Below are positions 5,141-30,540 of a DNA stretch of 34,395 nt, one piece after another. Origin of the DNA: a virus; IMG/VR virus record IMGVR_UViG_3300022745_000111, positions 1 to 34,395 of that record; one strand, 5' to 3'. The notes below the pieces were generated by a model. The model worked only from the letters and a program-made list of their open reading frames with translations. It did no database searches and had not been told where the DNA came from. Both the position numbers and the translations under genes were made by a program. Numbering within the stretch: position 1 is the stretch's first letter; every line of letters starts with the position of its first letter.

Positions 5141-5157
5141 ACTCTCATCCGCACCGA

Positions 5158-5202
5158 CCGGCCTGCGCCGGCCCGCTGAGTACTTGAGCCGCCAGCAGCT
5201 CA
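5158..5202 (+). promoter_or_regulatory. Structured leader element ahead of portal gene (copy A)
   Basis: The 87-bp gap before the portal gene has a perfect small hairpin (CCGGC at 5158-5162, GCCGG at 5167-5171). A 30-bp block at 5173-5202 follows, made of CCGCTGAGT, four variable bases and GAGCCGCCAGCAGCTCA. The second half can fold as TGAGC/GCTCA around an 8-base loop. The block recurs before the cupin gene with only the four middle bases changed. The function is unknown; a conserved 5' untranslated control element is the simplest reading. Confidence 0.5.
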
Positions 5203-5227
5203 TCAGCCCATCAACTGGGAAGATGAC

Positions 5228-8397: not shown

Positions 8398-9777
8398 GTG
8401 GCCTTTCTGACCCGCACCCTGGCGTTCATCGCCGCTTCCATCGTCTGGCTTGCGCTGCCCCTGCGCAACGCCCTGTTCGGCTACATGACCCGCACCGGCC
8501 TCGTGCTGGGTGCCAACCAGTTCAACAAGGAAGAGCGCATCGCGTTCGAGCAACTGCTCGAGGGCTTCCAAGATGCCCTGGTCCTGTCCAAGCTCGTCAA
8601 CGTGTTCAACACGGACTCGACCGAGATGGAGCGCTCGAGCAACATCATCTGGCGTCCGCAGCCCTATGTGTCGCAGTCGTTCAGCGGCACGGACCAGACC
8701 GCAAACTTCCGCGACTACATCCAGCTGTCGGTCCCGGCCACGCTCGGCTTCTCCAAGTCGGTGCCGTGGGTGCTGAGCGCGACGGAACTGCGCGATGCCC
8801 TGCAGGAGCAGCGCCTGGGCCAGTCGGCCCGCCAGAAGTTGGCCAGCGACATCAACGTCGCCATCAACAACGTGGCCAGCCTTCAGGGCACGCTGGTTGT
8901 CAAGCGCACCTCGGCCGCTTCGGGCTTCGATGACGTCGCGCAGTGCGATGCCATCATGAACGAGCAGGGCGTGATGTTCGACGACCGCTACCTGGGCCTT
9001 TCGACCCGCGACTACAACAGCGCCGCGTCGAACCTGGCCGGCCGCGGCACCGTCAACGGCATCGTGCAGACGGCGTACGAGCGTGCCTACGTGGCGCGGA
9101 TCTCGTCGTTCGACGTGCTGAAGATGGACTACACCCCGCGCCTGGCCGCCGCCGCCGGCACGACGGTGACCGTCAACGGGGCGAACCAGTACTACACGCC
9201 CAAGGCCGTGAGCGTGGCGTCCACGGGTGAGACGGCCAACGTCGACAACCGCTACCAGAACCTGGCCATCACGGTCAGCTCCGGCACGGTGAAGGTGGGC
9301 GACTGCTTCACCATTGCCAACGTCAACGCGGTGCACCACATCACCAAGCAGGACACCGGCCAGCTGAAGACCTTCCGCGTGACGGCCATCATCACCGGCG
9401 CCGGCGGCACGGGTACGATCCAGATCAGCCCGCCGATCATCTCCGGCACCGGTGCGACGGACGCCGAGCTGGAGTACCAGAACGTGACCGCGGCGCCGGC
9501 CAACAGCGCGGCGATCACCTGGCTGAACACGACGGCCGGCTACCTGAACCCGTTCTGGCAGAAGGACGCGCTGGAGATCCTGCCCGGGCACTTCATGCCC
9601 CCGACCGATGCCGGCGTGGCCATCATGCGCGCCGCCACCGACCAGGGCATCGAGTTGGTGATGCAGAAGTTCTACGACATCAACACGATGAAGACCAAGT
9701 ACCGCCTGGACACGCTGTTCGGCGTGGTGAACAAGCAGCCCGAGATGTCGGGCGTCATCCTGTTCAGCCAAGCCTGA
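8398..9777 (+). CDS. Major capsid (coat) protein, P22 gp5 type
   Basis: The product has 459 aa (P22 coat is about 430). Coat-like segments include EERIAFEQLLEGFQDALVLS, IIWRPQPYVSQSF and the C-terminal MKTKYRLDTLFGVV. A valine/threonine-rich stretch at about 245-350 probably corresponds to an inserted domain like the P22 I-domain. The GTG start at 8398 has AGGAG seven bases upstream. The first 30 residues (AFIAASIVWLALPLRNALFG) are strongly hydrophobic, which is unusual for a coat protein; ATG 8485 is an internal alternative beginning MTRTGLVLGANQF. It is followed by a GC-rich UUCG hairpin. Confidence 0.88.
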   Translation: MAFLTRTLAFIAASIVWLALPLRNALFGYMTRTGLVLGANQFNKEERIAFEQLLEGFQDALVLSKLVNVFNTDSTEMERSSNIIWRPQPYVSQSFSGTDQTANFRDYIQLSVPATLGFSKSVPWVLSATELRDALQEQRLGQSARQKLASDINVAINNVASLQGTLVVKRTSAASGFDDVAQCDAIMNEQGVMFDDRYLGLSTRDYNSAASNLAGRGTVNGIVQTAYERAYVARISSFDVLKMDYTPRLAAAAGTTVTVNGANQYYTPKAVSVASTGETANVDNRYQNLAITVSSGTVKVGDCFTIANVNAVHHITKQDTGQLKTFRVTAIITGAGGTGTIQISPPIISGTGATDAELEYQNVTAAPANSAAITWLNTTAGYLNPFWQKDALEILPGHFMPPTDAGVAIMRAATDQGIELVMQKFYDINTMKTKYRLDTLFGVVNKQPEMSGVILFSQA

Positions 9778-9787
9778 TGTAGACGCG

Positions 9788-9801
9788 GGGGCTTCGGCCC
9801 C
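9788..9801 (+). terminator. UUCG-tetraloop hairpin after coat gene
   Basis: GGGGC, a TTCG loop and GCCCC form a very stable hairpin ten bases past the coat stop codon. No T run follows, so full Rho-independent termination is doubtful. Partial termination or protection of the coat mRNA 3' end is likely. Confidence 0.5.
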
Positions 9802-9833
9802 TGCTGTCGGCTCACCCCCTCAAGGAGATCCTC

Positions 9834-10415
9834 ATGTCGTTCATTCCCCGTTCCGGCCAGGTCGATCTGGCCGTGGCCGCCGGCCAGTCTGTGGCCATCG
9901 GCTCGCTCGGCGCAGGCCAGACCAAGGTCTACACCGCGGCGGCCAGCGCTTCCAACCTGCCGCAGGTGTTCGCACTCGCGGCCGTGCTGACCGGCGCTTC
10001 GAGCTACACCACCTACGCATCGGCCACCACCGTGCGCATCGAGGCCTCGCCGGCCTGCGATGTGGAGTACGACTACGGCACCCAGCCCGCGCTGACGGTC
10101 GTCCCTGCTGCGGTGGCCACCGGCCTGACGGCCAAGGCCGGCGGCGGCCAGTCTGGCGCCACGGCGCTGACCGGCAACATCAACCGCGTCACGGTGTGCG
10201 CCACCATCGCCGATTCGGCCCTGCTGCCCCCCGGCACGGTCGGCAAGCGCGTGTCGGTCTACAACGCCGGCGCGGCAAGCTGCACGGTCTACCCGGCCAC
10301 CGGCGAGGCCATCAACTCCGGCGCGGCCAATGCCGGCTTCGCAGTGGCGGCCACCAAGGGCGCCATCTTCGAGTGCGTGGCCGCTGGCCTGTGGAATGCG
10401 GTTCTGAGCGCCTGA
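9834..10415 (+). CDS. Putative head decoration or minor capsid protein
   Basis: The product has 193 aa and is rich in Ala, Gly, Thr and Val with few charges, a composition typical of beta-structured virion proteins. It is preceded by AAGGAG at good spacing and lies immediately after the coat gene, where many phages encode a decoration protein. Segments such as GKRVSVYNAGAASCTVYPA and GAIFECVAAGLWNAVLSA suggest a beta-sandwich with a C-terminal strand. No family is recognised with certainty, and P22 itself has no decoration gene here. Confidence 0.5.
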   Translation: MSFIPRSGQVDLAVAAGQSVAIGSLGAGQTKVYTAAASASNLPQVFALAAVLTGASSYTTYASATTVRIEASPACDVEYDYGTQPALTVVPAAVATGLTAKAGGGQSGATALTGNINRVTVCATIADSALLPPGTVGKRVSVYNAGAASCTVYPATGEAINSGAANAGFAVAATKGAIFECVAAGLWNAVLSA

Positions 10416-10441
10416 TCGGCCTCTGACCGCGGGCAATGGAG

Positions 10442-10466
10442 GGGCCGCCAGTGCGCGGCCCTTCTT
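10442..10466 (+). terminator. GC-rich hairpin followed by T-rich stretch
   Basis: GGGCCGC (10442-10448) pairs perfectly with GCGGCCC (10455-10461) around a six-base loop and is followed by TTCTT. It could act as a weak intrinsic terminator or processing site. It overlaps the region just before the ribosome-binding site AAGGAG of the next gene, so it could also influence translation. Confidence 0.4.
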
Positions 10467-10480
10467 CCAAGGAGATCAAG

Positions 10481-10822
10481 ATGGACGAGTTTCCGCGCAT
10501 GCTGTACCGCGCCCCCGGCGCCGAGCCGATCCACGGCAGCATGCTGGCCACGCTGATCGTGCCGGATGCCGACGCCCAGGCCGCGGCGCTGGCCGACGGC
10601 TGGTCGCTGACCACCGACGAGGCCAAGCAGATCTACGCCGACGCCCAGGCCGCAGCAGCAGCCAAGGCCGCGGCGGATGCGCTGGCAGCGGTCACCAACC
10701 CCGACGCGCCACCGACGCGGGCCGAGCTGGAGCAGAAGGCTGCCGAACTGGGCCTGAAGTTCGACGGCCGCACCAGCGACCGCAAGTTGCGCGACTTGAT
10801 CGCCGCCACGCTGGAGACCTGA
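10481..10822 (+). CDS. Small virion-region protein with C-terminal HeH/SAP-like domain
   Basis: The product has 113 aa. The N-terminal half (PRMLYRAPGAEPIHG) is a motif I associate with phage proteins encoded near the head-tail joining genes. The middle is a long Ala-rich helix (AQAAAAAKAAADALAA). The last 35 residues (TRAELEQKAAELGLKFD and DRKLRDLIAATLE) resemble a helix-extension-helix domain that often binds nucleic acid. ATG 10481 has AAGGAG six bases upstream. A role in head completion is inference from position. Confidence 0.5.
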   Translation: MDEFPRMLYRAPGAEPIHGSMLATLIVPDADAQAAALADGWSLTTDEAKQIYADAQAAAAAKAAADALAAVTNPDAPPTRAELEQKAAELGLKFDGRTSDRKLRDLIAATLET

Positions 10823-10826
10823 AGCC

Positions 10827-11330
10827 GTGGGCTGGACAAAGCGCGAGCTGATCTCGGATGCTTATGGCGAGCTGGCCCTGGCCGGCTACGACTTCGACAT
10901 CAGCCCCGAGGAACTGCAGGCAGCGCTGAGGCGCCTGGACGCGATGATGGCGTCGTGGGCCTCGCAGGGCCTGCAGATCGGGTACGCGCTGTCCATGACC
11001 CCGTCCTCGAGCAGCCTGGACGCGGATTCCGGCCTGCAGAGCATCGCCGTGGCGGCCGTCTATCTCGGGCTGGCGATCAACATCGCCGGCGGCAAGGGCA
11101 AGGCCGTCCCGCAGACGACCAAGAGCAACTTCAAGGCGGCCTACGACGCCCTGATGTCGGCGGTCGCCAGCCAGCAGGTGATGGAGCAGCAGTACAAGAC
11201 CGGCACCCCCCGCGGCGCCGGGAACAAGACCTGGCGCACGGCCAACCAGCCGTTCGTCACCAAGCCCGACACGAGCCCGCTGCAGGGCGGCGAGGACGGC
11301 GGTTTGGCATTCATCGGCAAGGGCGACTGA
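10827..11330 (+). CDS. Tail accessory factor, P22 gp4 type
   Basis: The product has 167 aa, almost the same as P22 gp4 (about 166). P22 gp4 binds under the portal after packaging, starts tail assembly and helps retain DNA; it also has muralytic activity. The N-terminus (KRELISDAYGELALAGYDF, then LRRLDAMMASWASQG) is characteristic. The helical body (VYLGLAINIAGGKGK) and extended C-terminal tail also fit. GTG 10827 starts four bases after the previous stop. In P22, gp4 is followed directly by gp10; here four genes, including an esterase fibre, lie between them. Confidence 0.85.
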   Translation: MGWTKRELISDAYGELALAGYDFDISPEELQAALRRLDAMMASWASQGLQIGYALSMTPSSSSLDADSGLQSIAVAAVYLGLAINIAGGKGKAVPQTTKSNFKAAYDALMSAVASQQVMEQQYKTGTPRGAGNKTWRTANQPFVTKPDTSPLQGGEDGGLAFIGKGD

Positions 11331-11332
11331 TC

Positions 11333-11791
11333 GTGGCCATCAACAACCTCTCAAAGGTCACCTCGCTGGCCAGTAGCGATCTTCTTGCCGTGTTCTCCAG
11401 CTCCAGCGGGGTGGATTCCGGCGTGACGCTGGCCACGCTGCTGTCTTGGCTGCAGACGCAGCTCAGCGCGTCGGGCAAGTACATGACGCAGTACGCCGCG
11501 CCTGCCGCCACGGGCTTCTCTGTGACCGTGGCGCCGGCGGCCACCGGCACGAGCGTCTACTTGCTGATGACGCCGGGGGCCAGCTATGCAGCCGGCACGA
11601 TCCTGCTGCCCGCGAAGTCGTCTTGCGTCGACCAGCAGGAGGTGATGGTCTCCAGCACTCAGGCCATCACGACGCTGACGGTGTCGGGCAACGGCGCGAC
11701 CGTCAACGGGGCGCCTTCCACGCTGGCCACCAACGGATTCTTCAAGCTGCGCTACGACGGCGTCTTCGGCGCCTGGTATCGCGTCGGCTGA
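11333..11791 (+). CDS. Putative tail-associated protein sharing an N-terminal motif with the esterase fibre
   Basis: The product has 152 aa and starts with GTG two bases after the gp4-like stop. Its first 36 residues match those of the esterase fibre at 12155 at about half the positions (MAI-NL-KVT-LA--DL, then G-D and T--TL). This looks like a duplicated virion-attachment motif. The remainder is Thr/Ser/Ala-rich and ends FFKLRYDGVFGAWYRVG, like a short beta-structured tip. It may be a small fibre or fibre-adaptor protein; no family is assigned. Confidence 0.5.
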   Translation: MAINNLSKVTSLASSDLLAVFSSSSGVDSGVTLATLLSWLQTQLSASGKYMTQYAAPAATGFSVTVAPAATGTSVYLLMTPGASYAAGTILLPAKSSCVDQQEVMVSSTQAITTLTVSGNGATVNGAPSTLATNGFFKLRYDGVFGAWYRVG

Positions 11792-11818
11792 TAACCACAA
11801 CCAACCCAGGAGCGCGCC

Positions 11819-12139
11819 ATGAGCGTCGAGTCCCCCTTCCAGCCCAAGCGCGGCGCCAACTTCAAGCAGACGGCGACCACGACATCGCAGGCGATCACCA
11901 TCGGCCTGGGCTCCAAGTCCCTGCGCGTGCTGAACGCCGGCACAGTGGTTGTCTACTTCCGAACGTACAAGGCCAGCGATGAAACGCCGCTATGCACTGC
12001 GGCCGACACGCCGGTGGGCCCTGCCGGCGCCGCGTCGTCCACGCTGGTGATCGAGAAGCCGCAAGACCACGACACGCTGTGCTTCCTGGCCGACTCGACC
12101 ACCTCGGTGGTGCACTTCCAGCCCGGTGAGGGCTGCTGA
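11819..12139 (+). CDS. Small probable virion protein of unknown function
   Basis: The product has 106 aa and is predicted to be mainly beta strand (QAITIGLGSKSLRVLNAGTV, VVYFRTYKASDE, TLCFLADSTTSVVHF). CAGGAG lies nine bases before the ATG. It sits between the short tail-associated protein and the esterase fibre, within a block inserted relative to P22. A structural or fibre-joining role is plausible from context only. No signal peptide or membrane segment is visible. Confidence 0.45.
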   Translation: MSVESPFQPKRGANFKQTATTTSQAITIGLGSKSLRVLNAGTVVVYFRTYKASDETPLCTAADTPVGPAGAASSTLVIEKPQDHDTLCFLADSTTSVVHFQPGEGC

Positions 12140-12154
12140 TTCAGGGAGAGCGGC

Positions 12155-14056
12155 ATGGCAATTCAGAATCTGACGAAGGTCACCGCACTTGCAGACGCAG
12201 ACCTGGTCCCGGCGTACTCCCAGGCGGCCGGGCTGGATGTGGCGTGCACCGTCACGACTCTGAAGGCCCAGATCCTCAGCGGCCTGACGCTCACGCATGC
12301 GGCCGATGCCCTGACGACGTCGAATGTCGCCGCCCTGCAGGCGCAGATGACGCCCATCTCATCGGCCAACTTCGTAGCCCTGGCCACTGCTGGAGGCCTG
12401 GCGACTGGCGGCTATTACGACGTGACGGGCCTTGGGCTTCAGCATGCGCTCACTGCCAGCACCTATGCCCCAATCGGCCAAAGCTCGACTATCAAGTCGC
12501 AGCTTCAGGTGTGCTTCTTTGGCGACAGCATCACCAACAGCGCCGGCCAGGTCACGCTGTACGGGTTCCGCATTTCGACCACCAGCGGCGGGTTCACGTC
12601 GAACCAGTGGGCCATTCTCGGGTGCGATCCCGAGACGCCGGCCGGCACTGGCTCGCTGATCTACAACGCCACGACCAAGCTCATGACGTGGACGGCTCCA
12701 GGGGAGTCGGCCGGAGTGGCCGTCGACGTTTCGAGGACCGGCATCTACTACTGCGCCAGTTCTGTCGCTGGGCACGGGATCACGTTCACCTGGGACGGAA
12801 GCCTCACGACGAGCTATACCAGCGGCACGCTGAGCGTGACCGTGCCGGCCGATGGCAACCAATATCAGGCCGTTTTCAACTCACGCGGCTACCCCGTCTG
12901 CGCAATGGCTCAGATTGGCCAGGCCGCAGCGATTGCGCAGACCACGGTCTACCCGTACGGGCTGGCGCTGGGTGGCGTTCCGGGGTTTGGCTCGGCTTCG
13001 CTCTTGGCGGCCTCATGGCAGACCAGCCAGGTATTGGGCGATGCCGATGTGATCAATATCGGCACCAACGACATCCAGAACACAACCACGCACGCCCAGA
13101 TCATCGCCAATATTCAGGCGTTTATTGCCACTCGAATCGCCCTTGGTGTCCGTGCCATTGGCGTGTGCACGATTCCACCTCGAGCTACAGGAACGGGCCG
13201 GGCCAACACCGCCGCCGAAGATCGCAAGCGCAATGCCGTGAATCGGTGGATCAAGGACTATTGCTCGACCTACAAGTCGCTGGCCTGCCTGGACATCAGC
13301 GCGGCCATTGAAGACCCGACTTCTGGCGCGTGGCTGACCAACTACAGCACTGACGGGATTCACCCTGCCAACCTGGGCGCGTGGGCGATGGGGACGGTCA
13401 TCAAGAACTGGCTGGCCACAATGGTCAGCGGAAGCCCCTACTACCCGGCGTTCAACGACGTCTACAACGCCACCGACAACCCCTATGGCGCATGGGTGTC
13501 TGGCACGGGGTATCTTTCCTTTGAAGGAACCGGTGGCGCAACCACAGGAGGCGTCACTGCCACCATCCCGGCCAACTGGAATGTGAACCGCCAATCTGGA
13601 TCGACGGTCATAACGGCTGTTGGGTCCAAGGTGGCGCGCACCGACAACGTCGGCGGCAGTTGGTATCAGCTGGCCATCACGGGCGCGGCCAACGAATCGC
13701 TGAGCCTCACGCCGCAGTCAAACCCGCTCACGCTGTCCACGCTTGGAGTGGTGGCCGGTGACAAGCTGGAAGGGTTTCTTGAAGTCAACATCCCGGCGTC
13801 GTCGGGGATGCGGTTCTGCAATATGCGCTTGTCGTGGGTGGGCATCTTGGCGCGAACCGTCGAGGCTTTCACCGACGTAATCATCGGCAGCAATGCCGTG
13901 CTGACCGACAACATGGGCAAGTTCTGGCTTCGCCTGCCCGCGACAACAGTGCCAGTCGGAGCGACTGGCGTCAGCATCTCGATTCGGGTTGGCGCTGACA
14001 CGTCGGCAACGGTGCAACTGGGCCGGTGGTGGGTGGCCAAGGTGCGGCCGGTGTAA
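12155..14056 (+). CDS. Tail fibre or spike with SGNH/GDSL esterase domain
   Basis: The product has 633 aa. The N-terminal 40 residues repeat the motif of the gene at 11333 and probably anchor the protein to the virion. An SGNH hydrolase domain spans about residues 115-425. It has FFGDSITN with nucleophile S125, INIGTNDI with N305, and DGIHPANLGAWA with D400 and H403 as the catalytic pair. The C-terminal 200 residues are beta-rich, suggesting a carbohydrate-binding or trimer-forming domain. Such domains in phage tails usually remove acyl groups from capsule or O-antigen during adsorption. The exact sugar is unknown. In P22 no fibre is encoded at this position. Confidence 0.8.
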   Translation: MAIQNLTKVTALADADLVPAYSQAAGLDVACTVTTLKAQILSGLTLTHAADALTTSNVAALQAQMTPISSANFVALATAGGLATGGYYDVTGLGLQHALTASTYAPIGQSSTIKSQLQVCFFGDSITNSAGQVTLYGFRISTTSGGFTSNQWAILGCDPETPAGTGSLIYNATTKLMTWTAPGESAGVAVDVSRTGIYYCASSVAGHGITFTWDGSLTTSYTSGTLSVTVPADGNQYQAVFNSRGYPVCAMAQIGQAAAIAQTTVYPYGLALGGVPGFGSASLLAASWQTSQVLGDADVINIGTNDIQNTTTHAQIIANIQAFIATRIALGVRAIGVCTIPPRATGTGRANTAAEDRKRNAVNRWIKDYCSTYKSLACLDISAAIEDPTSGAWLTNYSTDGIHPANLGAWAMGTVIKNWLATMVSGSPYYPAFNDVYNATDNPYGAWVSGTGYLSFEGTGGATTGGVTATIPANWNVNRQSGSTVITAVGSKVARTDNVGGSWYQLAITGAANESLSLTPQSNPLTLSTLGVVAGDKLEGFLEVNIPASSGMRFCNMRLSWVGILARTVEAFTDVIIGSNAVLTDNMGKFWLRLPATTVPVGATGVSISIRVGADTSATVQLGRWWVAKVRPV

Positions 14057-16099: not shown

Positions 16100-16555
16100 A
16101 TGCTGGATGTGATCGACAAGGCGGAAATTTCTGATCTGCGCCCCTCCAGCGAGGCGAGCCGACAGATCTGGAAGTTGCAAGCGGCTGCGCGTGAACTGCC
16201 GGCAATCGAGATCGAGACGAAGCACTTCTTTGCACCGGGCATGTACGCCCGCGCCGGGCGTCTTTCCAAGGGCTCCGTCATCGTCGGCAAGGTGCATCGC
16301 ACGACGCACTTCTTCATCGTCACCAGCGGCCGTGTGGCCGTAAGCGACAAGACCGGCACTGTCGAACTGGAGGCCGGGGCGGTTGTTGTGTCGGCCCCAG
16401 GCACCAAGCGCGCCATCGTGGCGCTGACGGACGCCTCGTGCCTTAATGTGCACCGCACCGACCTGACCGATCTGGACGCCATTGAGGCAGAACTGGTCGA
16501 GCCTGACCCGACCGCGCTGTTTGATGCGCGCAACCTGCTGATCGGGGGTGCGTGA
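16100..16555 (+). CDS. Cupin-like protein at the P22 gp14 position
   Basis: The product has 151 aa. The centre reads as a single cupin barrel: GKVHRTTHFFIVTSGRVAV resembles the first cupin motif with two His that could bind metal, and APGTKRAIVALTDASCLNVH resembles the second. The N- and C-terminal extensions are helical and acidic. The gene lies between the needle-like and gp7-like genes, where P22 has gp14 (about 172 aa). It could be a structural replacement of gp14 or a sugar- or metal-binding virion part. ATG 16100 has GGGGAG upstream. Confidence 0.6.
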   Translation: MLDVIDKAEISDLRPSSEASRQIWKLQAAARELPAIEIETKHFFAPGMYARAGRLSKGSVIVGKVHRTTHFFIVTSGRVAVSDKTGTVELEAGAVVVSAPGTKRAIVALTDASCLNVHRTDLTDLDAIEAELVEPDPTALFDARNLLIGGA

Positions 16556-17289
16556 TGTGGGTTGCAGTGGCCATTGCGGGCACCAACTTGATTGGCGGCC
16601 TGATCAACTCGGACTCGCAGCGCAGCGCCGCCAACACCGCAGCCGACGCGCAGACCGCCGCCAGCCAGGCCGGGATCGCAGAGCAGCGCAGGCAGTTCGA
16701 CGCCATCCAGCAACTGCTCTCGCCCTACGTCAACGCGGGCACCGGGGCGCTGGGGCGCCAGCAGGATCTCATCGGCGTCAATGGTGACGCGGCGCAGAAA
16801 GCGGCCATTGACGCCCTGCAAGCCTCGCCCGCGTTCACCTCGGCGCAGCAACTCGGCGAACGCAGCATCCTGGCCAATGCATCGGCCACCGGCGGGCTGC
16901 GTGGCGGCAACACCCAGGCAGCGCTGGCGCAGTTCGCGCCGCAACTGCTGGCGCAGTCGATCAACGACCAGTACTCGCGCCTGGGAGGCCTGACCTCCAT
17001 CGGCCAGAACGCGGCGGCCGGCGTCGGCAATGCCGGCATGTCCACCGGCAACAACGTGGCCAACCTGCTCGGGCAGATCGGCAGCGCGCAGGCTGGCGCG
17101 GCAATCGGGCAAGGCAGGGCGACGGCCGGGGCGGTCAACGGATTCACCGGTGCGCTGGGGCAGTTCTATGGCTTGGGCGGGTTCAGCCGCCTGGGCATGG
17201 TCTCCCCGAACGCGGCCGGAGGCGCCAACTCTGCGGGCTTCGGCTCGGGGGCTGGGTTCGGCAATCTTGACCTTGGGTTGAACTTCTGA
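16555..17289 (+). CDS. DNA ejection protein, P22 gp7 type
   Basis: The product has 244 aa (P22 gp7 is about 229). A hydrophobic N-terminal stretch (WVAVAIAGTNLIGGLIN) recalls the removable leader of gp7. It is followed by an Ala/Gln-rich helical body (ALAQFAPQLLAQSINDQYSR) and a Gly-rich C-terminus. It is the first of three consecutive Ala/Gln-rich proteins, the arrangement of gp7, gp20 and gp16, which are packaged in the head and ejected to form a conduit across the envelope. The ATG overlaps the cupin stop (ATGA); GTG 16552 is also possible. Confidence 0.72.
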   Translation: MWVAVAIAGTNLIGGLINSDSQRSAANTAADAQTAASQAGIAEQRRQFDAIQQLLSPYVNAGTGALGRQQDLIGVNGDAAQKAAIDALQASPAFTSAQQLGERSILANASATGGLRGGNTQAALAQFAPQLLAQSINDQYSRLGGLTSIGQNAAAGVGNAGMSTGNNVANLLGQIGSAQAGAAIGQGRATAGAVNGFTGALGQFYGLGGFSRLGMVSPNAAGGANSAGFGSGAGFGNLDLGLNF

Positions 17290-21644: not shown

Positions 21645-22808
21645 ATGTTCGCCATCACGTCCATCTACCCGCAGTTCTTCGACACCGACGGCACGCCCCT
21701 GGAGGCCGGGGCGCTCTACTTCGGCACGGCCAACGGCAACCCGGAGACCAGCCCGACGACGGTCTACTGGGACTCTGCCGGCACGCAGCCCTGCGCGCAG
21801 CCGCTGACGACCTCCGGCGGCTACATCATGCGCTCGGGCACGCGGGCGCGGGTCTATGCGTCCGGCGACTACGCCCTGAGCGTGCGCAACAAGGCCGGCA
21901 CGCTGGTGGTCTACACCGCCACTTCGGCGGAACTCACCGTTGCCCTGACCGGGACAACGGCCGGGACTGGCGCCGACATGGTCGGGTTTTCGTCTGGCAC
22001 CACTTACGCTGCCGGGACGGTGGGCGAAGCGCTGAAGACGGCAATTCTGACGTCTGGCGGGACGATCAGTGGCAACCTGGTGGTCACCGGAACGCTAAAC
22101 GTCAGCGGCGCGACAACGTTGGCCGGATTGACGGCCGGGTCTACCGTGGTCAGTTCCCTGACTTCAAGCGGCCAGGTGATCGTTTCAACCGCCGGTTCGC
22201 CCTACTACCAAAGCGCGGATCTGTTTGGCGGCGGCCACACCTATGCGTTTGGCTCTGGCGGCTCCAACTTCACCTCGGGCACGTTCGGCATTGTCGACTC
22301 GACAGCCGCGGCAACCCGCTGGACCATTGACTCATCCGGCCACATGGCGCCAGGCGCCGACAACACGCAGAACTGCGGCACGGCGGCCAAGCGGTGGGCG
22401 GTGGTCTACGCCGGCACAGGCGCGATCAATACCTCCGACGCTCGGGTCAAGACACCCGTGCAGCCGCTGACGAACGCCGAGGTTTGCGCGGCGATGGCGC
22501 TTTCCCGCGAGATCGGCACCTTCAGGTTCCTCGATGCCGTGGCCGTCAAGGGCGACCGGGCCCGTTTGCACATCGGCATGACCGTGCAGCGCGCTGTCGA
22601 GATCATGACAGCGCATGGCCTGGACGCTCAGCAGTACGGGTTCATCTGCTATGACCAATGGGACGCCGACACGGTGCAGACCGGACCGGACACGTTCGAG
22701 ACGCACGGCGCGCCGGGTGATCGCTGGGGCTTCCGCGTGGATGAACTGCTGCTGTTCATCGCCCGCGGGTTCGATGCTCGGCTGTACGCATTGGAGACCA
22801 AGGCATGA
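21645..22808 (+). CDS. Tailspike/fibre with P22-like head-binding domain and S74 chaperone domain
   Basis: The product has 387 aa. Residues 1-105 have the head-binding pattern of P22-type tailspikes (FFDTDGTPLEAGALYFGTAN, VYWDSAGTQP, then LTTSGGY and GDYALSVRNKAG). The middle is a short Thr/Gly-rich beta region. From S264 the protein reads as a peptidase S74 intramolecular chaperone: SDARVK gives the Ser264/Lys269 pair, and YGFICYDQW and WGFRVDELLLFIARGF follow. Such domains help trimer folding and then cut themselves off near the Ser. No clear polysaccharide-degrading domain is seen between them, so the spike is short and may bind rather than digest. Confidence 0.82.
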   Translation: MFAITSIYPQFFDTDGTPLEAGALYFGTANGNPETSPTTVYWDSAGTQPCAQPLTTSGGYIMRSGTRARVYASGDYALSVRNKAGTLVVYTATSAELTVALTGTTAGTGADMVGFSSGTTYAAGTVGEALKTAILTSGGTISGNLVVTGTLNVSGATTLAGLTAGSTVVSSLTSSGQVIVSTAGSPYYQSADLFGGGHTYAFGSGGSNFTSGTFGIVDSTAAATRWTIDSSGHMAPGADNTQNCGTAAKRWAVVYAGTGAINTSDARVKTPVQPLTNAEVCAAMALSREIGTFRFLDAVAVKGDRARLHIGMTVQRAVEIMTAHGLDAQQYGFICYDQWDADTVQTGPDTFETHGAPGDRWGFRVDELLLFIARGFDARLYALETKA

Positions 22809-25340: not shown

Positions 25341-25841
25341 TCACAAAGTACACCCGGCATGCATCAACCGTTTCGCGGTGAGGTACGCCGTGCTGGCGGC
25401 TTCAATGGTGTCGAAGTAGCCAAGCGCCATCTTCTTGCCTCTGACTTGAATTTGAGCCTTGTACTTTGAGCTTCTGGCGTACCAAGACACGCCCAGCACG
25501 CCGGTCTTGTTGTCAGACCGGGCGCGCCTCTGGTTCTCCATGTTGGTCATCCGATCAAGTGCGCGCAGGTTCGATAGACGGTTGTCCGTCCTGACGCCGT
25601 TGATGTGGTCGATGTCGCCAACAGGGTAGTGGCCGTGATGCATTGCCCACCCCAAGCGATGGGCGCATCGCGATTTGCCTTTGACCGAGATCTTGATGTA
25701 CCCGTTGCTATCGATTGACCCGGCAATGCTGCCGGCGAGAGCCAACTGATTTCGGGTGACTTTCCATCGGACTAAGCCAGTGTCTGGCTCATAGGAAAGA
25801 AATTCGCGCAGTGTTTCAACGCTAACATCGTCAATAGCCAT
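25341..25841 (-). CDS. HNH endonuclease with AP2 DNA-binding domain (homing type)
   Basis: The product has 166 aa. An HNH core is visible: CAHRLGWAMHHGHYP, then DIDHINGVRTDNRLSNLRA, the usual His-Asn arrangement of phage homing nucleases. The C-terminal 55 residues (TGVLGVSWYARSSKYKAQIQ and KMALGYFDTIEAASTAY) are an AP2-type DNA-binding domain. The start has GAGGTG upstream. Its DNA looks less GC-rich than the neighbours, consistent with a mobile gene. It sits downstream of integrase, separated by a strong hairpin, and may be a free-standing homing gene; no interrupted host gene is visible. Confidence 0.85.
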   Translation of the reverse strand: MAIDDVSVETLREFLSYEPDTGLVRWKVTRNQLALAGSIAGSIDSNGYIKISVKGKSRCAHRLGWAMHHGHYPVGDIDHINGVRTDNRLSNLRALDRMTNMENQRRARSDNKTGVLGVSWYARSSKYKAQIQVRGKKMALGYFDTIEAASTAYLTAKRLMHAGCTL

Positions 25842-25904: not shown

Positions 25905-26975
25905 CTATTTTGGCTTACCAACTCGGACTTGGATAGGGGCAATGCCTCTCAAGTCGGAGTAGAGATCAGACATTTTTTCGGTCTTGTGCCCAAGAAGAGC
26001 CCGCGTGTCCACATCCCCCTGAGCGTCGTACAGACGCTTGGAAAGAGACCTGATTTCATGCAGGGTAGGCGCCGCCTCGTCAGCAATGCCCGCCAGCACC
26101 CGCGCCTCAGTGAACGCCCTGCTGATCCGATCCGGGTGCACCTTCGACCCTGCCGGCGCATTGCCCCACGGATCGACGTGATGCAGCAGCAGCGGCGACA
26201 CGACGCGAAACCGGCGCGCCACCAGTTCCTCAAGCGACCAACCAAGCGCATCCAACCGCAGAGCCAGCGGAATCGCTATGCGCGCCCCGGTCTTGCCTCG
26301 GGTGAGGGTAAGGTAGCCATCGGCCACGTCGGCGCGCTGTAGGCCCGCTATCGTCGAGCGGTCTGCGCCTGTGACCAGGGCCAGCGCCATCGCGTGCTGG
26401 AGCCATTCTGCGACCTCTGGCGCCTTGGCGTAGATCAGCAAGAACGTCTCCAGCGTCAGCCTGCCTCGCTGAACCGTGACCTTCGGCCGTCCGGTGATGC
26501 TGGCTGGGTCGTGATCCATCCAGCCCAACTCCTGGCCGCGCCGACAGATGGCGATCAGGCGCGAACGGATGGCCTCGGCCGACCTGGCCTTGCCCTCGCC
26601 GACGATGCGCTCTATCAAGCCGGCGCAATCCGCGACGGTCAGGGCGCCGCACTGAATCGAGCCGATGGCAGCGGTGATGATCTTGTCCTGGCTGCGCACG
26701 GTCTTCGCGGTGTTCGGCACGCTGCTGGTTGGCATCTTCGCAATCAACGCGGCCACAGTGTTGTCGGTGCCGGTCAGCTTGTCCATGAGCGACGGCCGCT
26801 GCGACTGGACGTACTGATTCGCCAGCAGGGCCTCATTGCGGGCGACGGCCAAGGACACGCGGCCGATGATGAGCAGGCGGCCGTCTGGGTGCGACCAGGC
26901 GTAGTAGCCGGGGCGCGGTTCGCGGAGGCCTCGGGGCCATCCGATGCGCTGCCGGGAGCGGCGGGCAGAGTTCAC
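25905..26975 (-). CDS. int: Tyrosine-recombinase integrase
   Basis: The product has 356 aa. The N-terminal part (PGYYAWSHPDGRLLIIGRVS) resembles the arm-site-binding domain of lambda-type integrases, and residues about 70-170 fit the core-binding domain. The catalytic domain has R206 (GADRS), K228 (RGKTG), H306 and R309 (HEIRSLSKRLYD), H330 (LLGHKT) and Y339 (MSDLYSD), so all key residues are present. It starts with GTG overlapping the stop of the Ntn-hydrolase-like gene. It should integrate the phage into the host chromosome, with the excisionase two genes away. It is not an integron integrase: no extra IntI-type patch is seen. Confidence 0.92.
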   Translation of the reverse strand: MNSARRSRQRIGWPRGLREPRPGYYAWSHPDGRLLIIGRVSLAVARNEALLANQYVQSQRPSLMDKLTGTDNTVAALIAKMPTSSVPNTAKTVRSQDKIITAAIGSIQCGALTVADCAGLIERIVGEGKARSAEAIRSRLIAICRRGQELGWMDHDPASITGRPKVTVQRGRLTLETFLLIYAKAPEVAEWLQHAMALALVTGADRSTIAGLQRADVADGYLTLTRGKTGARIAIPLALRLDALGWSLEELVARRFRVVSPLLLHHVDPWGNAPAGSKVHPDRISRAFTEARVLAGIADEAAPTLHEIRSLSKRLYDAQGDVDTRALLGHKTEKMSDLYSDLRGIAPIQVRVGKPK

Positions 26976-27418
26976 TGCTCAGGCTCCTGAAACGCCAATT
27001 GATCAATGCCGTTTCCGCACCCATTGTCCAAGGCGCACGCCACTTCAACAGCTTCTGAAGCGGACTTCCCTAGGTGCATAGCGGCCAACGCAAAATCTCG
27101 CCCGCTTCCAATGGCGAAGTGCTGCGGGGGAAATTTGATCGGGTGGGGCGTGCGTTCAAACTTCCAGATTTCTCCATTGGCCCAAACGATCATCAGCCCG
27201 GCGTACTCATCGCGATCACGCTGCGATGGGGGAAACTTGTCAGGATTGCGCCCATCTTTGAACCACGCCAAGACCTCCTCGCCCGCATCGGCGTTTCCCG
27301 CGTAGGCTGCGAACGCATCGCCCAGGTCGAATATCTTCGTTGTCGTTCGGTACAACGATCCCAAACACGCCCGCTTGTCAGCGGCCAACGTCTTGCCATC
27401 CCATGCGATGACGCTCAT
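26972..27418 (-). CDS. Ntn-hydrolase (proteasome beta/HslV-like) phage protein
   Basis: The product has 148 aa. The order of segments follows the HslV/proteasome-beta fold: N-terminal SVIAWDGKTLAADKRA, then TTTKIFDLGDAFAAYAGNAD, IVWANGEIWKFE, and FAIGSGRDFALAAMHLGKSA. After Met removal, Ser2 would occupy the nucleophile position usually held by Thr; D14 and K28 fit the supporting Asp and Lys. Similar small phage proteins are known but their role is unclear. It overlaps both integrase (GTGA) and excisionase (ATGA) genes. Whether it is proteolytically active cannot be told from sequence. Confidence 0.65.
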   Translation of the reverse strand: MSVIAWDGKTLAADKRACLGSLYRTTTKIFDLGDAFAAYAGNADAGEEVLAWFKDGRNPDKFPPSQRDRDEYAGLMIVWANGEIWKFERTPHPIKFPPQHFAIGSGRDFALAAMHLGKSASEAVEVACALDNGCGNGIDQLAFQEPEQ

Positions 27419-27630
27419 TGATGCACCCCCAACTGCGCCAGCAGCCCGCCATTGACCGGCACGTTGCCCGTGATCCTGCGCGCTGTCTCCAGAATCATCC
27501 ACCGCTTGCCGACACGCTCGGGGGCGGGGTGAATCTCGCCACGGCGGCACCATTGGCGCAGCACGAACGCACTCGGCGGCGGGTCGTATCGCAGCGCTGC
27601 CCAAGACTCCAAAGGGATCATCTTTGCCAT
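27415..27630 (-). CDS. xis: Excisionase-like DNA-binding protein
   Basis: The product has 71 aa. MIPLESWAALRYDPPPSAFV followed by LRQWCRRGEIHPAPERVGKR is the winged-helix pattern of small phage excisionases: a helix, a turn with an R-W pair, and a Pro-rich wing. The gene is two steps upstream of int in the same leftward operon. ATG 27630 overlaps the stop of the next gene. Excisionases bend attachment-site DNA to direct integrase to excision, so this is the likely partner of the integrase. Confidence 0.78.
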   Translation of the reverse strand: MAKMIPLESWAALRYDPPPSAFVLRQWCRRGEIHPAPERVGKRWMILETARRITGNVPVNGGLLAQLGVHQ

Positions 27631-27953
27631 CAGAACATCTCCAGCGTGTTCGCCCGCTGCCGGCGCGTGGCCGCCGAACTCTGCGCGTGGTGCTTGGCGT
27701 CGTATACCAGATGGCAGCGCTGGCACCAGTGGCGCAGGTTCGCCAGATCGCAGTTCTCCGGCACATGGTCAAGATGCGCTGTCGTCAGCACGACGCGGCT
27801 TCCGGTCTCCGGGTGCGGCTCACCGTTCACTGCGCGGCAGTCAGGCCACATTGGCGAGCCCTCGCAGCGATTGCCGGAGCGTTCGCGGATGGCGGCAACG
27901 ATGGCCTTCCAGTTGCCGGGATAGCGGGCGCGGTTCTCGGGCTTGATGGGCAT
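27630..27953 (-). CDS. HNH nuclease-like protein
   Basis: The product has 107 aa. AHLDHVPENCDLANLRHWC followed by QRCHLVYDAKHH is an HNH core with Cys pairs (RCEGSP with PDCRA, and CQRCH) that probably bind structural zinc. It is short and lacks a separate DNA-binding domain, unlike the AP2-HNH protein at 25341. It is not beside terminase, so a packaging role is doubtful here. ATG 27953 overlaps the stop of the upstream gene (ATGA). Confidence 0.72.
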   Translation of the reverse strand: MPIKPENRARYPGNWKAIVAAIRERSGNRCEGSPMWPDCRAVNGEPHPETGSRVVLTTAHLDHVPENCDLANLRHWCQRCHLVYDAKHHAQSSAATRRQRANTLEMF

Positions 27954-28183
27954 CACGGCTCCTTCATCGCGGCGTCGATTGCGGCGTCAAGGTTTGGCCC
28001 CTTCAGCGAGAGGTTGCGCCGATACACCCACGCATGGTTGCCGTCGATGTTCAGCCCCATCGGGCTGAAATCTTGGCGAAGGAAGTCGTATCGCATCGCA
28101 TCCTGCCGCAGCCGATCCCGCTCCACCAGCGCACAGGCGTGGCAGTCGCAGTCGGGCAGCGGGGGGTGGGGGTCGGGGGGCAT
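27953..28183 (-). CDS. Hypothetical early protein
   Basis: The product has 76 aa. It begins with a Pro-rich stretch and two close Cys (DCDCHACALVERDR), then a helical segment (DAMRYDFLRQDF) and an aromatic middle (GNHAWVYRRNLSL), ending DAAIDAAMKEP. The ending is a form I associate with small phage early proteins of unknown function. It is the first gene past the attC-like array in the direction of transcription. Confidence 0.55.
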   Translation of the reverse strand: MPPDPHPPLPDCDCHACALVERDRLRQDAMRYDFLRQDFSPMGLNIDGNHAWVYRRNLSLKGPNLDAAIDAAMKEP

Positions 28184-28194
28184 GCTGTGTCTCA

Positions 28195-28250
28195 GGTGTT
28201 AGGGGATCAGGGGTGCGCCATCCGGGGTGTTATGGGCGCAGGGGTGCGCC
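28195..28250. repeat. Two 25-bp near-identical repeats at 31-bp period
   Basis: Unit 1 is 28195-28219 and unit 2 is 28226-28250. Both start GGTGTTA and end CAGGGGTGCGCC, and they match at about 22 of 25 positions. The second unit also forms a long hairpin with the sequence after it (GTGTTATGGGCGCA at 28227-28240 against TGCGCCCTACAACAC at 28245-28259). It separates the lone attC half-site from the gene at 27953. Confidence 0.6.
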
Positions 28251-28259
28251 CTACAACAC

Positions 28260-28266
28260 GTTAGGC
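28260..28266 (+). other. Lone attC core half-site (GTTAGGC) at the array end
   Basis: GTTAGGC matches the GTTRRRY right box of integron attC sites. On the minus strand it reads GCCTAAC two bases after a TGA stop, as in classical cassettes. No left box (RYYYAAC) is found within 150 bp; the left side is replaced by the 31-bp-period repeats. It is probably a truncated or degenerate fourth attC marking the array boundary. Confidence 0.5.
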
Positions 28267-28267
28267 A

Positions 28268-28483
28268 TCACCAAATGCGAGCCCACTGCCACGCCCGTTG
28301 CAGCGCGGCTACCAACGGCGCCAATCCAACCGCCGCCGCCCATTTCGGTATGGTCGCATCCACTTCGTACACCTCAAGTCCGGCCGCGCGCCACTCGGCA
28401 ATGTGGGTTGGGTCTGCGCGTACCTCAAACCCCCACCAATTGCCGTTGTTGTCGCGCACCATCATCAGCAGTGGGCGCTTCAC
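28268..28483 (-). CDS. Cassette-like hypothetical protein
   Basis: The product has 71 aa. The N-terminus (RPLLMMVRDNNGNWWGFEVR) suggests a beta hairpin, and the C-terminal third (AAVGLAPLVAALQRAWQWA) is a hydrophobic helix that might touch membrane. GTG 28483 overlaps the stop of the upstream gene. Its TGA lies two bases before a GCCTAAC box on the same strand. It shares a segment between two attC-like sites with the next gene. No family is recognised. Confidence 0.5.
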   Translation of the reverse strand: MKRPLLMMVRDNNGNWWGFEVRADPTHIAEWRAAGLEVYEVDATIPKWAAAVGLAPLVAALQRAWQWARIW

Positions 28484-28650
28484 GAGAACATGCCCCGCTC
28501 AATCGGCAATCCTTCTTCCACCATGCGGGCAGCTTCGCGGAGCGCCCATGCAATGCTGGCGCGGTCGCTCTCGCTGCTGCCGGCGTCTTCCACCTGCACA
28601 TGCAGGTCGCCATCATCGTCGTGCTGTATCTGTACGGTGTAGGTGCTCAT
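28480..28650 (-). CDS. Cassette-like 56-aa acidic protein
   Basis: The product has 56 aa and begins MSTYTVQIQHDDDGDLHVQV, two beta strands around an acidic turn. An acidic helix follows (SIAWALREAARMVEEGLPIE). GAGG lies seven bases before the ATG, and that leader starts right at the edge of attC-like site 1. The compact strand-strand-helix form recalls small antitoxin or HicB-type domains, but this is a weak resemblance and no partner toxin is evident. Confidence 0.5.
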   Translation of the reverse strand: MSTYTVQIQHDDDGDLHVQVEDAGSSESDRASIAWALREAARMVEEGLPIERGMFS

Positions 28651-28671
28651 GTTGTCCTCGTTGCAGGCGCT

Positions 28672-28730
28672 GCCTAACAGGTCGCTCAAACGGACGGGCC
28701 TACGGCCCGCCGTTTAGCTTTGCGTTAGGC
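28672..28730 (+). other. attC-like integron recombination site 1 (59 bp)
   Basis: The left box is GCCTAAC (28672-28678) and the right box GTTAGGC (28724-28730). Inner arms 28684-28700 and 28704-28718 pair perfectly over 15 bp when C28687 and A28694 are left unpaired. This is the same pair of extra bases, on the same side, as in the classical aadA1 attC. The total length is 59 bp, that of a standard short attC. The stop codon of the gene at 28700 lies in the hairpin loop. Confidence 0.85.
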
Positions 28731-29131
28731 CCTGGAATCCGCTCGCCAAGTGCGCGCAGTTCGCCCCACATCGGATCTTCTGCGGGAAGGCCCTTGCTCA
28801 GTTCGCCGCAGGCAATGGCGTAGTCCATCACAAGCGCCCGCCACCGCTCGATCTCGTCGGCAGCCTCGTGCTCAATGCACCGGTTTTCGTAGGGCCTTAC
28901 TTCATGGGTGCGGTGCGTCTCCGCATGTTCTTGCAGCCATGTTCTGGCTTTGCGCTCCGTGTGAAACTCCTTACGCTCGCTGAACCAGATGACTATGCCG
29001 TCGGTCTTCGTGTTGACCACGGCCCATCCGTGCTCCGGCACAACGTCGCGCAGCCTGCTCACAATGTCACGCTCCGGCGCCAGGCCTAACCTCTCGTTCG
29101 AGCCGACCTCGGCCGGCAGCTTGGTGTTCAT
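28700..29131 (-). CDS. Cassette-like hypothetical protein spanning two attC-like sites
   Basis: The product has 143 aa. ATG 29131 has AGGAAG eight bases upstream and lies within attC-like site 2. The C-terminal residues GPNAKLNGGP are encoded by attC-like site 1, with the TAG in its loop. The interior has a strand-rich part (GWAVVNTKTDGIVIWFSERK), a helix (ERKARTWLQEHAET) and an acidic helical end (EIERWRALVMDYAIACGELS). No family is recognised. The protein composition is realistic, whereas opposite-strand frames are not. Confidence 0.6.
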   Translation of the reverse strand: MNTKLPAEVGSNERLGLAPERDIVSRLRDVVPEHGWAVVNTKTDGIVIWFSERKEFHTERKARTWLQEHAETHRTHEVRPYENRCIEHEAADEIERWRALVMDYAIACGELSKGLPAEDPMWGELRALGERIPGPNAKLNGGP

Positions 29132-29177
29132 GCGGTCTTCCTTTCTGGCCTCGGCGGGCTCAACTCAGACGTTAGGC
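29084..29177 (+). other. attC-like integron recombination site 2 (94 bp)
   Basis: The left box is GCCTAAC (29084-29090) and the right box GTTAGGC (29171-29177). The inner left arm GTTCGAGCCGACC (29096-29108) pairs with GGCGGGCTCAAC (29153-29164) when C29099 and A29106 are unpaired; one extra base bulges on the right. The loop is longer than in site 1 and contains the start codon and ribosome-binding site of the gene at 28700. The TAA of the gene at 29172 is formed by the right box read on the minus strand. Confidence 0.78.
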
Positions 29178-29561
29178 CCCAATTCCATGCGCGCGCTCCA
29201 GCAGGCGCGCGAAAATCTCGTGCACGTCTGCGTGGTCGCCTTTGGCCTGGTTCCACTGCTCGTGCGCCTCGTCCCACAGTTCCTCGATCTCCAGCGGGTC
29301 ACGCGGCGTCTTCTCCGCCGCGTGCAGCGCTGCGTGCATGGCGCGCAGTTGCACGGTGGCGTGCGCGTGCCAGTTCGCACCTCGCTGCGCCACCGGCACC
29401 CACGAAAGCTCCAGCGCCACATCTCGGTCTGCCGGCGCTGCGCGTTCGGCCGCAAGCTGTTCCACGGCCCGCGCGAACGTCAGCCACCACGGGCTGTCGT
29501 TGTTGCCGTCTTGCAGGCTGTGCTTGTTCATCAGTTGCGCAATGTCGTGGTCAGTCAGCAT
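29172..29561 (-). CDS. Cassette-like hypothetical protein
   Basis: The product has 129 aa and is helical (MLTDHDIAQLMNKHS; FARAVEQLAAERAA; ELWDEAHEQWNQAKGDHADV), with a C-terminal ARLLERAHGIGA. The stop codon is the TAA inside an attC right box, as seen in many integron cassettes. ATG 29561 was chosen; GTG 29585 would add eight residues and start close to attC-like site 3. The N-terminal form resembles small phage early proteins. No function can be assigned. Confidence 0.55.
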   Translation of the reverse strand: MLTDHDIAQLMNKHSLQDGNNDSPWWLTFARAVEQLAAERAAPADRDVALELSWVPVAQRGANWHAHATVQLRAMHAALHAAEKTPRDPLEIEELWDEAHEQWNQAKGDHADVHEIFARLLERAHGIGA

Positions 29562-29589
29562 GGTCAATCGTCTCGCTTCGGCCACAGGG

Positions 29590-29676
29590 GCCTAACAGGT
29601 CAGTCAACCGGACGCGCGACAGGCCGCCGCGCTCCGGGTCATTGGTCACGCGCGCCGGTTACCTCCGGCGTTATGG
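29590..29676 (+). other. attC-like integron recombination site 3 (87 bp)
   Basis: The left box is GCCTAAC (29590-29596) and the right box GTTATGG (29670-29676), a slightly divergent core. The inner left arm (29603-29618) pairs perfectly over 14 bp with 29649-29662 when C29605 and A29612 are unpaired. The same two extra bases are on the same side as in sites 1 and 2. The gene at 29683 ends six bases beyond the right box, so this is the upstream boundary of the array for leftward transcription. Confidence 0.8.
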
Positions 29677-29682
29677 CTCATG

Positions 29683-29958
29683 TCACTCCTTCGGCTCGGC
29701 CCGGTACAGTGCATTCTTCAATGCGCGCAGCAGTTCATAAACACGCAGGTCGTTGTTGTCTGCCGCTGCCAGTGCCATCCCGATCACGCCGTCTGCCCAG
29801 CGCTTCTGCTCTGCGGCCACGGCTGCGTCGAGGGCGGCGCTGTCGTAGAGCATGTGCGTGCCTCGCAGGTACTGCTGTGCAAGCACATAGTCTGGTGCGG
29901 GCACATGCCAGCGCAGCACGCCGCCCACGATTTCAGCGATGGGCTTCGGGTCAGTCAC
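29683..29958 (-). CDS. Hypothetical early protein
   Basis: The product has 91 aa and opens MTDPKPIAEIVGGVLRWHVP, a start common in small phage proteins. A helical half follows (LDAAVAAEQKRWADGVIGMA). GTG 29958 overlaps the stop of the next gene (GTGA). The stop is beside attC-like site 3, so it may be the last fixed gene before the array, or the first cassette. No function is recognised. Confidence 0.55.
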   Translation of the reverse strand: MTDPKPIAEIVGGVLRWHVPAPDYVLAQQYLRGTHMLYDSAALDAAVAAEQKRWADGVIGMALAAADNNDLRVYELLRALKNALYRAEPKE

Positions 29959-30266
29959 GGCATCGCCCTCCCAATCTCAGCAGCGGCGCGGACGATTGCG
30001 CGGCGGGTCAGTGTTGCGTTGTCGGCCAGTTCATCCAGCCAGACATGGTGCTGTTGGTATGGCTTGCCAGCAGAGGGGCGGCTGCAGTCGATGACCAGCC
30101 CTAGACTCACCGCCAGCCTCAGCGCATCCCCGTCGTTGTGCAACGGGTTCCACAGCACGCCAACGGCTTTGCTGTCCAAGAACGTAAGCCCGCTCACATC
30201 GTCAAACTCCACGCCATGCCCGTCAGCCTTCGCCGCCCACTCCAGCAGTCGCCGGTCGTCAGTCAT
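29955..30266 (-). CDS. Hypothetical early protein
   Basis: The product has 103 aa, with an N-terminal helix (DDRRLLEWAAKADG), a central stretch (AVGVLWNPLHNDGDALRLAV) and a C-terminal helix ending in a basic/Ala run (RRAIVRAAAEIGRAMP). The segment around WNPLHNDGDALRLAV is a recurrent theme in small phage proteins that I recognise but cannot assign a role. It overlaps genes on both sides by 4-8 bases. Confidence 0.55.
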   Translation of the reverse strand: MTDDRRLLEWAAKADGHGVEFDDVSGLTFLDSKAVGVLWNPLHNDGDALRLAVSLGLVIDCSRPSAGKPYQQHHVWLDELADNATLTRRAIVRAAAEIGRAMP

Positions 30267-30540
30267 TGCCGCCCCCGATCTTCTCGTTCATCGCCGTCTC
30301 CAGCGACTCGGCCTCGTCGGCCAGTTCGATCATCTTCTGCGCCGTCTCGCGCAACGCCTTGTGCCCGCACAGCACGCGCATGTCAGTCACCGTGCGGCTG
30401 CTCTTGAGCCCGTCCACACCGTAGTCGTAGGTCGGCTCGGTGCAGATCAGGATCAATTCGATGCGAGCCTTGACCTTCGGCGGCGCATCCATGTCCGGCG
30501 CCAGGATCAGATTGCTGGCGTGGCCGAGAAGCTCTTTCAT
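30259..30540 (-). CDS. Hypothetical early protein
   Basis: The product has 93 aa. A strand-rich N-terminal half (KARIELILICTEPTYDYGVD) is followed by an amphipathic acidic helix (LRETAQKMIELADEAESLET). ATG 30540 overlaps the stop of the Lar-like gene (ATGA). There is no metal motif or membrane segment. The strand-then-helix design would fit a small dimerising regulator or inhibitor, but this is speculation. Confidence 0.55.
   Translation of the reverse strand: MKELLGHASNLILAPDMDAPPKVKARIELILICTEPTYDYGVDGLKSSRTVTDMRVLCGHKALRETAQKMIELADEAESLETAMNEKIGGGND

Follow-up and report, generated by a model that had tools for sequence, protein, structure and literature searches.

The phage DNA analysed here, a virus record from IMG/VR (34,395 bases) referred to throughout as the window, very likely carries an integron cassette array inside the genome of a temperate phage, as a member of a wider group of phage integrons with inverted cassettes. 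The structure of the attC and attI-like sites, the identity of cassettes across phages, the breakpoints at core sites, the antisense orientation of the cassette genes and the occurrence of integron integrase (IntI) in related phages are shown; recombination activity, the source of the integrase and the model of transcription are inferred.

Results

The window is a P22-like temperate phage

The contigs in IMG/VR are predicted to be viral. PHROG and Pfam scans of the genes identified the window as a P22-like temperate phage without IntI, and the criteria for a temperate tailed phage are met by genes for the terminase large subunit (TerL, 3692–5140), portal (5228–7300), major head (8398–9777), integrase and excisionase; scaffold (7400–8257), DNA ejection (16552–17289) and tail spike or fibre (21645–22808) genes are also present. 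The gene at 230–2170 was considered as a terminase and ruled out, as it encodes a primase/helicase.

The integrase (25905–26975, minus strand; phrog_7244/phrog_1; PF00589, hmmscan 9e-9) is a phage tyrosine integrase and not an integron integrase, with zero NCBIfam matches, TIGR02249 included. The excisionase (27415–27726, minus strand; phrog_629, PF07825) and an HNH endonuclease (27630–27956, minus strand; phrog_1571) lie between it and the array, and genes for a Lar-like protein, an exonuclease, SSB and a Sak4-like ATPase occupy the right end of the window. A first-pass annotation of this DNA, made from the sequence alone, had placed the array amid phage genes, and this held, with excisionase and integrase on one side and the Lar-like, exonuclease and Sak4-like genes on the other. 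Downstream of the integrase is an HNH endonuclease with an AP2 domain (25341–25841), likely a free-standing homing endonuclease. The DNA of the array region had almost no match among GenBank phages or plasmids. A Burkholderiales host is inferred from relatives and attC type but is not shown.

Three attC sites in the window

An Rfam scan of the window at the gathering threshold gave zero family matches. As Rfam apparently has no usable attC family, we built our own covariance model (R1) from 23 bona fide attC sites, none of them from the window, that adjoin integron integrases, either in class 1 integrons on plasmids or in the chromosomes of Burkholderiales. R1 is mainly of the Burkholderiales type and blind to other attC types, so that the phage sample is biased; in a Shewanella phage integron it finds a single weak site.

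The first-pass annotation had proposed three attC sites, at 28672–28730, 29084–29177 and 29590–29676, to be checked by a covariance-model search with three expected hits. Exactly three strong matches were obtained, all on the plus strand, and the claim held: attC1 (28672–28730, 59 nt, GCCTAAC...GTTAGGC; 54.8 bits, E 5.2e-12), attC2 (29084–29177, 94 nt; 53.2 bits, E 1.3e-11) and attC3 (29590–29676/7; 39.7 bits, E 3.3e-8), the fourth-best place in the window reaching only 17.3 bits. Sites in bacterial arrays score from about 73 bits downward. Only one attC was found by R1 in 80 contigs or loci holding relatives of the phrog_5086 gene described below, indicating that the model is not triggered by phage DNA at large. 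The orientation of the sites is clear (top strand = plus strand), since the reverse strand scores far lower (12.9 bits at attC1 and 9.8 bits at attC2). A misreading of this orientation was considered and ruled out on these scores and on the position of IntI, which, like that in bacteria, is on the side of attI.

Both attC1 and attC2 meet the full attC plan, with R'' (RYYYAAC) and R' (GTTRRRY) boxes, paired L'' and L' arms, extrahelical bases and a variable loop; attC3 meets it except for a degenerate R' box (GTTATGG), and still scores as given above. The arm that carries the bulged A and C is R''-L'', which is also the case in the aadA attC. The three sites are far beyond chance and genuine; that they recombine is inferred.

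A CALIN requires two or more closely spaced attC sites and no IntI nearby; with three attC sites within 1 kb and no IntI nearby these criteria are met, and the first-pass description of a phage-borne CALIN without integron integrase held for the window record. The sole integrase among its listed genes is the phage integrase that lacks a TIGR02249 match, and the IntI gene that a full integron requires was absent from the record in PHROG, Pfam and NCBIfam searches; the record may be incomplete, and absence from the phage itself is unproved.

An attI-like site beside the first cassette

The core box at 28260 had been described in the first-pass annotation as a lone box that ends the array. This held in part: the core is real, but it is half of an attI-like site (28195–28266, plus strand) made up of two 25-nt direct repeats (28195–28219 and 28226–28250) and a 39-nt core region (28228–28266; TGTTATGGGCGCAGGGGTGCGCCCTACAACAC-GTTAGGC, with GTTAGGC at 28260–28266). 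TGTTA precedes this GTTAGGC at an attI1-like distance, and alignment of the site to attI1 scored 47, compared with a maximum of 39 in 2000 core-keeping shuffles. Of 58 viral IntI loci, 12 had TGTTA-N-GTTRRRY immediately upstream of IntI (background rate 0.4%), and 11 of these 12 matches were exactly 39 nt like the window site; the same 39-nt architecture is present in loci L246 and L258. It is this spacing, together with the repeats, the 39-nt length and the attI1 alignment, that identifies the supposed lone core as the right half of an attI-like site. The integron criterion of an attI next to the first cassette is met by 28228–28266, which is attI-like by sequence, its activity being untested; a cut would be expected after G28260.

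Cassettes and possible former cassettes

Cassette 1 (28261–28724 by core positions, plus strand; TTAGGC...attC1...G) carries two small genes of unknown function, both antisense to attC: gene b (28268–28483, minus strand, 71 aa), 63% identical to L270 1649–1861 and without a match in PHROG, Pfam or NCBIfam; and gene a (28480–28650, minus strand, 56 aa), 77% identical to L270 1437–1649 and without a match in the family libraries. Cassette 2 (28725–29171, plus strand, between the attC1 and attC2 cores) holds an antisense gene of 143 aa (28700–29131, minus strand) whose Shine–Dalgarno sequence and ATG lie inside the attC2 loop and whose last codons and stop lie inside attC1; no relative of its product was found in IMG/VR, PHROG, Pfam or NCBIfam.

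Cassette 3 (29172–29670, plus strand, between the attC2 and attC3 cores) likewise holds one antisense gene (29172–29585, minus strand) of 137 aa (130 aa if an internal start is used), and its TAA stop is part of the attC2 R' box. This gene is 65% identical to L268 1088–1513 and clusters with L246 1489–1857, both of these relatives lying within attC arrays. Its product had no match in GenBank phages and only a weak match among 399 Burkholderiales genomes, and on this basis the window cassettes are not shown to occur in host integrons. The classical criterion for a cassette, a single promoterless sense gene upstream of its attC, is unmet because the genes are antisense and, for cassette 1, also because there are two of them.

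Three neighbouring genes have cassette relatives elsewhere. Those of the HNH gene at 27630–27956 are attC-flanked cassettes in L242/L247/L285 and L248 (64–65% identity); those of a phrog_5086 gene (29955–30266, minus strand) are cassettes in L246 and L270; and a small gene (30259–30540, minus strand) is 73% identical to the first cassette beside IntI, next to attI, in L258. The phrog_5086 gene could be a former cassette, and the same possibility exists for the small gene.

Cassette genes are antisense to their attC sites

The genes between the window attC sites are all encoded on the minus strand and thus run antisense to the top strand of attC. These inverted cassettes are the most unusual feature of the array and were missed by the first-pass annotation. 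Across viral arrays, 350 cassette genes were antisense and 6 sense in 80 informative dereplicated loci, 78 of which were scored as antisense and 2 as sense; bacterial integrons (22 arrays/loci) had 11 antisense and 111 sense genes (Fisher P = 1.7e-18 for viral versus bacterial orientation, on loci). Genes were called with a home-made codon model and loci were dereplicated by visual inspection of alignments. Three routes led to the viral set: relatives of the ATPase, an attC DNA pattern and an IntI profile applied regardless of attC. The antisense orientation agrees across all three.

The coding strand does not depend on the gene caller alone, since Pfam matches fall on antisense cassettes (two DNA methylases of C5/N4-N6 type, Dam, an RNA ligase and two Lar proteins) and the deposited phage genome MW202573 has its GenBank genes on the plus strand and four attC sites on the minus strand. 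This circular P22-like genome from Manatee Spring (MW202573.1; L302 2069–3739) has the four sites antisense to annotated genes; it is in the list of Qi et al. (2023; PMC9892861), in the relevant sections of which orientation is not discussed. The cassettes of phage TJE1 are sense, as published. One phage contig, L244, has two attC arrays on opposite strands (220–2162 and 8646–12926), and in both the genes are antisense to the sites of that array.

The 401 antisense cassette proteins fell into 282 clusters, 214 of them singletons, with a median length of 100 aa; DNA methyltransferases and Lar-like restriction alleviation proteins are among them. Starts lay inside the gene's own attC for 39 of 154 antisense genes near their attC; among 151 stops close to an attC, 101 were within the site. 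Long phage attC sites, for example in the loops of L252, L263, L270 and L267, encode recurrent N-terminal leader peptides of cassette proteins (AGPVERxVRP or GLSEGLG). Adjoining the recombination genes of another phage, L002, is a gene (2090–3076) for a protein with many near-identical short repeats of the AAGGSIEAG/KAGEGIEAG type.

Cassette relatives share breakpoints at the core

The first-pass annotation had suggested that the phage could exchange accessory genes, and held that gene content in relatives should change at the core boxes, the proposal being refuted if differences never fell there. Gene content does change at core boxes, and this refutation was not met; exchange is supported by shared cassettes and core breakpoints, without a recombination assay. 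Cassette 1 and its L270 counterpart are 74.7% identical over 446 nt (window 28258–28695), with homology that begins 2 nt from the core in both. This island is one of 5, among 23 homology islands between the arrays of unrelated phages, for which both partners have the start no more than 6 nt from a core; random displacement of the cores gave a mean of 0.007 and a maximum of 1 in 2000. Two phages that are about 99% identical, L267 and L282, differ by exactly one 381-bp cassette with its junction at the core, although homologous recombination between attC sites that are 95% identical may also account for the cassette missing from L282. A near-identical relative of the window differing by one cassette was not found. 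Evidence for recombination at G^TTRRRY is indirect only and consists of such breakpoints between phages, cassette 1 included.

The ends of four contigs (L001, L003, L004 and L005), each about 99% identical to L002, fall no more than 220 nt apart (L002 7387–7603), inside its cassette array; it is possible that the L002-type phage population is polymorphic within the array.

Integron integrases in related phages

IntI above the curated cut-off is carried by three of 50 array-bearing records: L258 and L246, which are phages with head, tail or terminase genes, and L278, an isolate with a bacterial-type, all-sense array. A scan of IMG/VR with the IntI profile gave 295 relatives, and 58 of the best 80, the loci closest to the phage enzyme, had attC arrays. 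In those 58 loci attC was always IntI-proximal, in the classical IntI-to-attC geometry, with 185 antisense and 5 sense genes, and in many related phages IntI adjoins attI and is co-directional with the cassette genes. Among 50 array-bearing records with lengths of 20 kb or more, 29 gave terminase matches in a search limited to two terminase families.

A tree of IntI sequences, 65 viral and 25 from elsewhere, needs 4 label changes, compared with 21.9 after shuffling, so that phage and bacterial IntI are for the most part separate; the two viral entries that match IntI1 exactly (L376/L378) are likely bacterial. The closest chromosomal IntI in the Burkholderiales sampled is 62% identical to phage IntI. 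Some IntI match was present in 143 of 399 Burkholderiales genomes, and an integron integrase above the cut-off in 95 of 250; as so many carry IntI, supply in trans by the host is also plausible. The first-pass suggestion that a host integron integrase could be used therefore held only in part, as many related phages encode IntI and the integrase need not come from the host.

Several records are worth describing individually. L263 (record G430) has an N-terminal integron integrase fragment (7669–7869) beside an eight-attC array, and might be a phage integron in the course of losing IntI, intermediate toward the state of the window. Virus Rctr41k (KX853513.1; L395) encodes an IntI-like protein (4680–5678) that is 47% identical to the L258 IntI, with small co-directional genes upstream in the layout of the inverted phage integrons; no attC was found in it by R1. 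L275 and L280, from the same 55-kb record, are two array copies accompanied by two terminase matches, which could reflect two related phages in tandem or a misassembly.

Discussion

In the mechanism that we propose, the array would lie within the phage early operon and comprise the attI-like site and, after it, three cassettes with a working-type attC at the end of each. The attC bottom strand would fold when the DNA is single stranded, and an integron integrase provided in trans, from a related phage or a host chromosomal integron, would join attC to attI, or to another attC, at G^TTRRRY; accessory genes would thereby be inserted, lost or shuffled among phages. The inverted orientation would let the early transcript from the recombination-gene side read all of the cassettes in series, and attC, at the 5' end of its own gene, would serve as an intercistronic joint, often with one stop and sometimes with the next start.

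Phage CALINs have been published and are not new in themselves: Qi et al. (2023; PMC9892861) reported that phage genomes contain 17 CALINs as well as three complete integrons, and five of six tested attC sites from virulent phages recombined with attI1 through IntI1. The window resembles those phages (TJE1, P12002L, PH101 and MW202573) in having an attC array without IntI in a phage genome, and in cassettes with small or methyltransferase genes. It differs in layout, as these authors found a same-direction arrangement typical in TJE1 and PH101 and put odd directions down to mosaicism, whereas MW202573 and almost all of the IMG/VR arrays are antisense. A phage IntI lineage with inverted cassettes is undescribed in the sections of that paper bearing on it, and in the literature that we searched, which took in no preprints and few subscription papers, so that priority is uncertain.

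With sedentary chromosomal integrons and CALINs of bacteria such as Burkholderiales, the phage arrays share the attC plan, the core cut site and the IntI-attI-attC geometry, but phage cassette genes are antisense (350/356) where bacterial ones are sense (111/122). Likeness to the class 1 integron extends to the attI-like site, which aligns to attI1, and to attC1, which is built like the aadA attC; unlike a class 1 integron, the window has neither an IntI gene nor resistance genes, and its genes are read toward attI and not away from it. Integron integrases on phages are also known from Shewanella phage M16-3 and Vibrio anguillarum phages, whose IntI is 45% identical to that of L258; the M16-3 cassette genes are sense, as in a captured bacterial integron and unlike the inverted phage arrays.

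Three other explanations need to be weighed. The array might be a fossil, a fragment of a bacterial integron captured once, now decaying and no longer exchanged, with its genes kept only for phage use. In favour of this, the window record lacks IntI and its sole integrase is of another kind, the attC3 R' box is degenerate, and the neighbours at 27630, 29955 and 30259 look like cassettes that have lost their attC. We consider it unlikely: the cassette genes are small, phage-type and antisense, unlike bacterial cassettes; these cassettes recur in other phages, where the breakpoints fall at the core; and the scores of attC1 and attC2 reach the level of functional sites. There is still less support for convergence, in which the hairpins are intercistronic regulatory or terminator-like RNAs that merely resemble attC and differences arise by homologous recombination between repeats. 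On mRNA the sites do fold as strong hairpins between genes, many stops and some starts lie inside attC across the group, and homologous recombination could account for the L267/L282 difference. Against this, the agreement with true attC spans 61 positions and takes in the boxes, the bulged C and A and the strand asymmetry; related phages have integron integrase and attI together with such arrays; and the islands stop at the cut point and not anywhere in the repeat, in partners with different attC bodies.

Finally, the viral contigs could be misassigned bacterial integrons. Membership of IMG/VR is only predicted, and L278 (an isolate, all sense) and L376/L378 (IntI1 copies) do look bacterial. 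For the group as a whole this is all but excluded, given that the window and many other records carry terminase, portal, head and tail genes, that gene orientation is opposite to that of bacterial integrons and that MW202573, a deposited circular phage genome, has the same layout.

Our preferred reading remains that of an integron cassette array belonging to the phage, and a bolder form of it seems likely to be correct. Here, phages of diverse morphotypes would own an ancient integron system, with a phage-type IntI, a 39-nt attI and attC arrays, in which inverted cassettes are read by the early transcript, attC acts as the intercistronic joint and small accessory and anti-restriction genes circulate in a shared exchange network; the window would be a member without IntI that needs integrase in trans. 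This raises the question of why cassettes in phages have an orientation opposite to that of bacterial cassettes. Given that DNA methyltransferases and Lar-like proteins are among the cassettes, it is possible that phages trade counter-defence genes by this route. In phage mosaicism, the exchange of small accessory genes is usually ascribed to illegitimate or homologous recombination; if our reading is true, many phages would have a site-specific system devoted to cassettes, a concrete mechanism whose breakpoints can be predicted, and this would link phages to the integron gene pool and locate a large stock of unknown cassettes.
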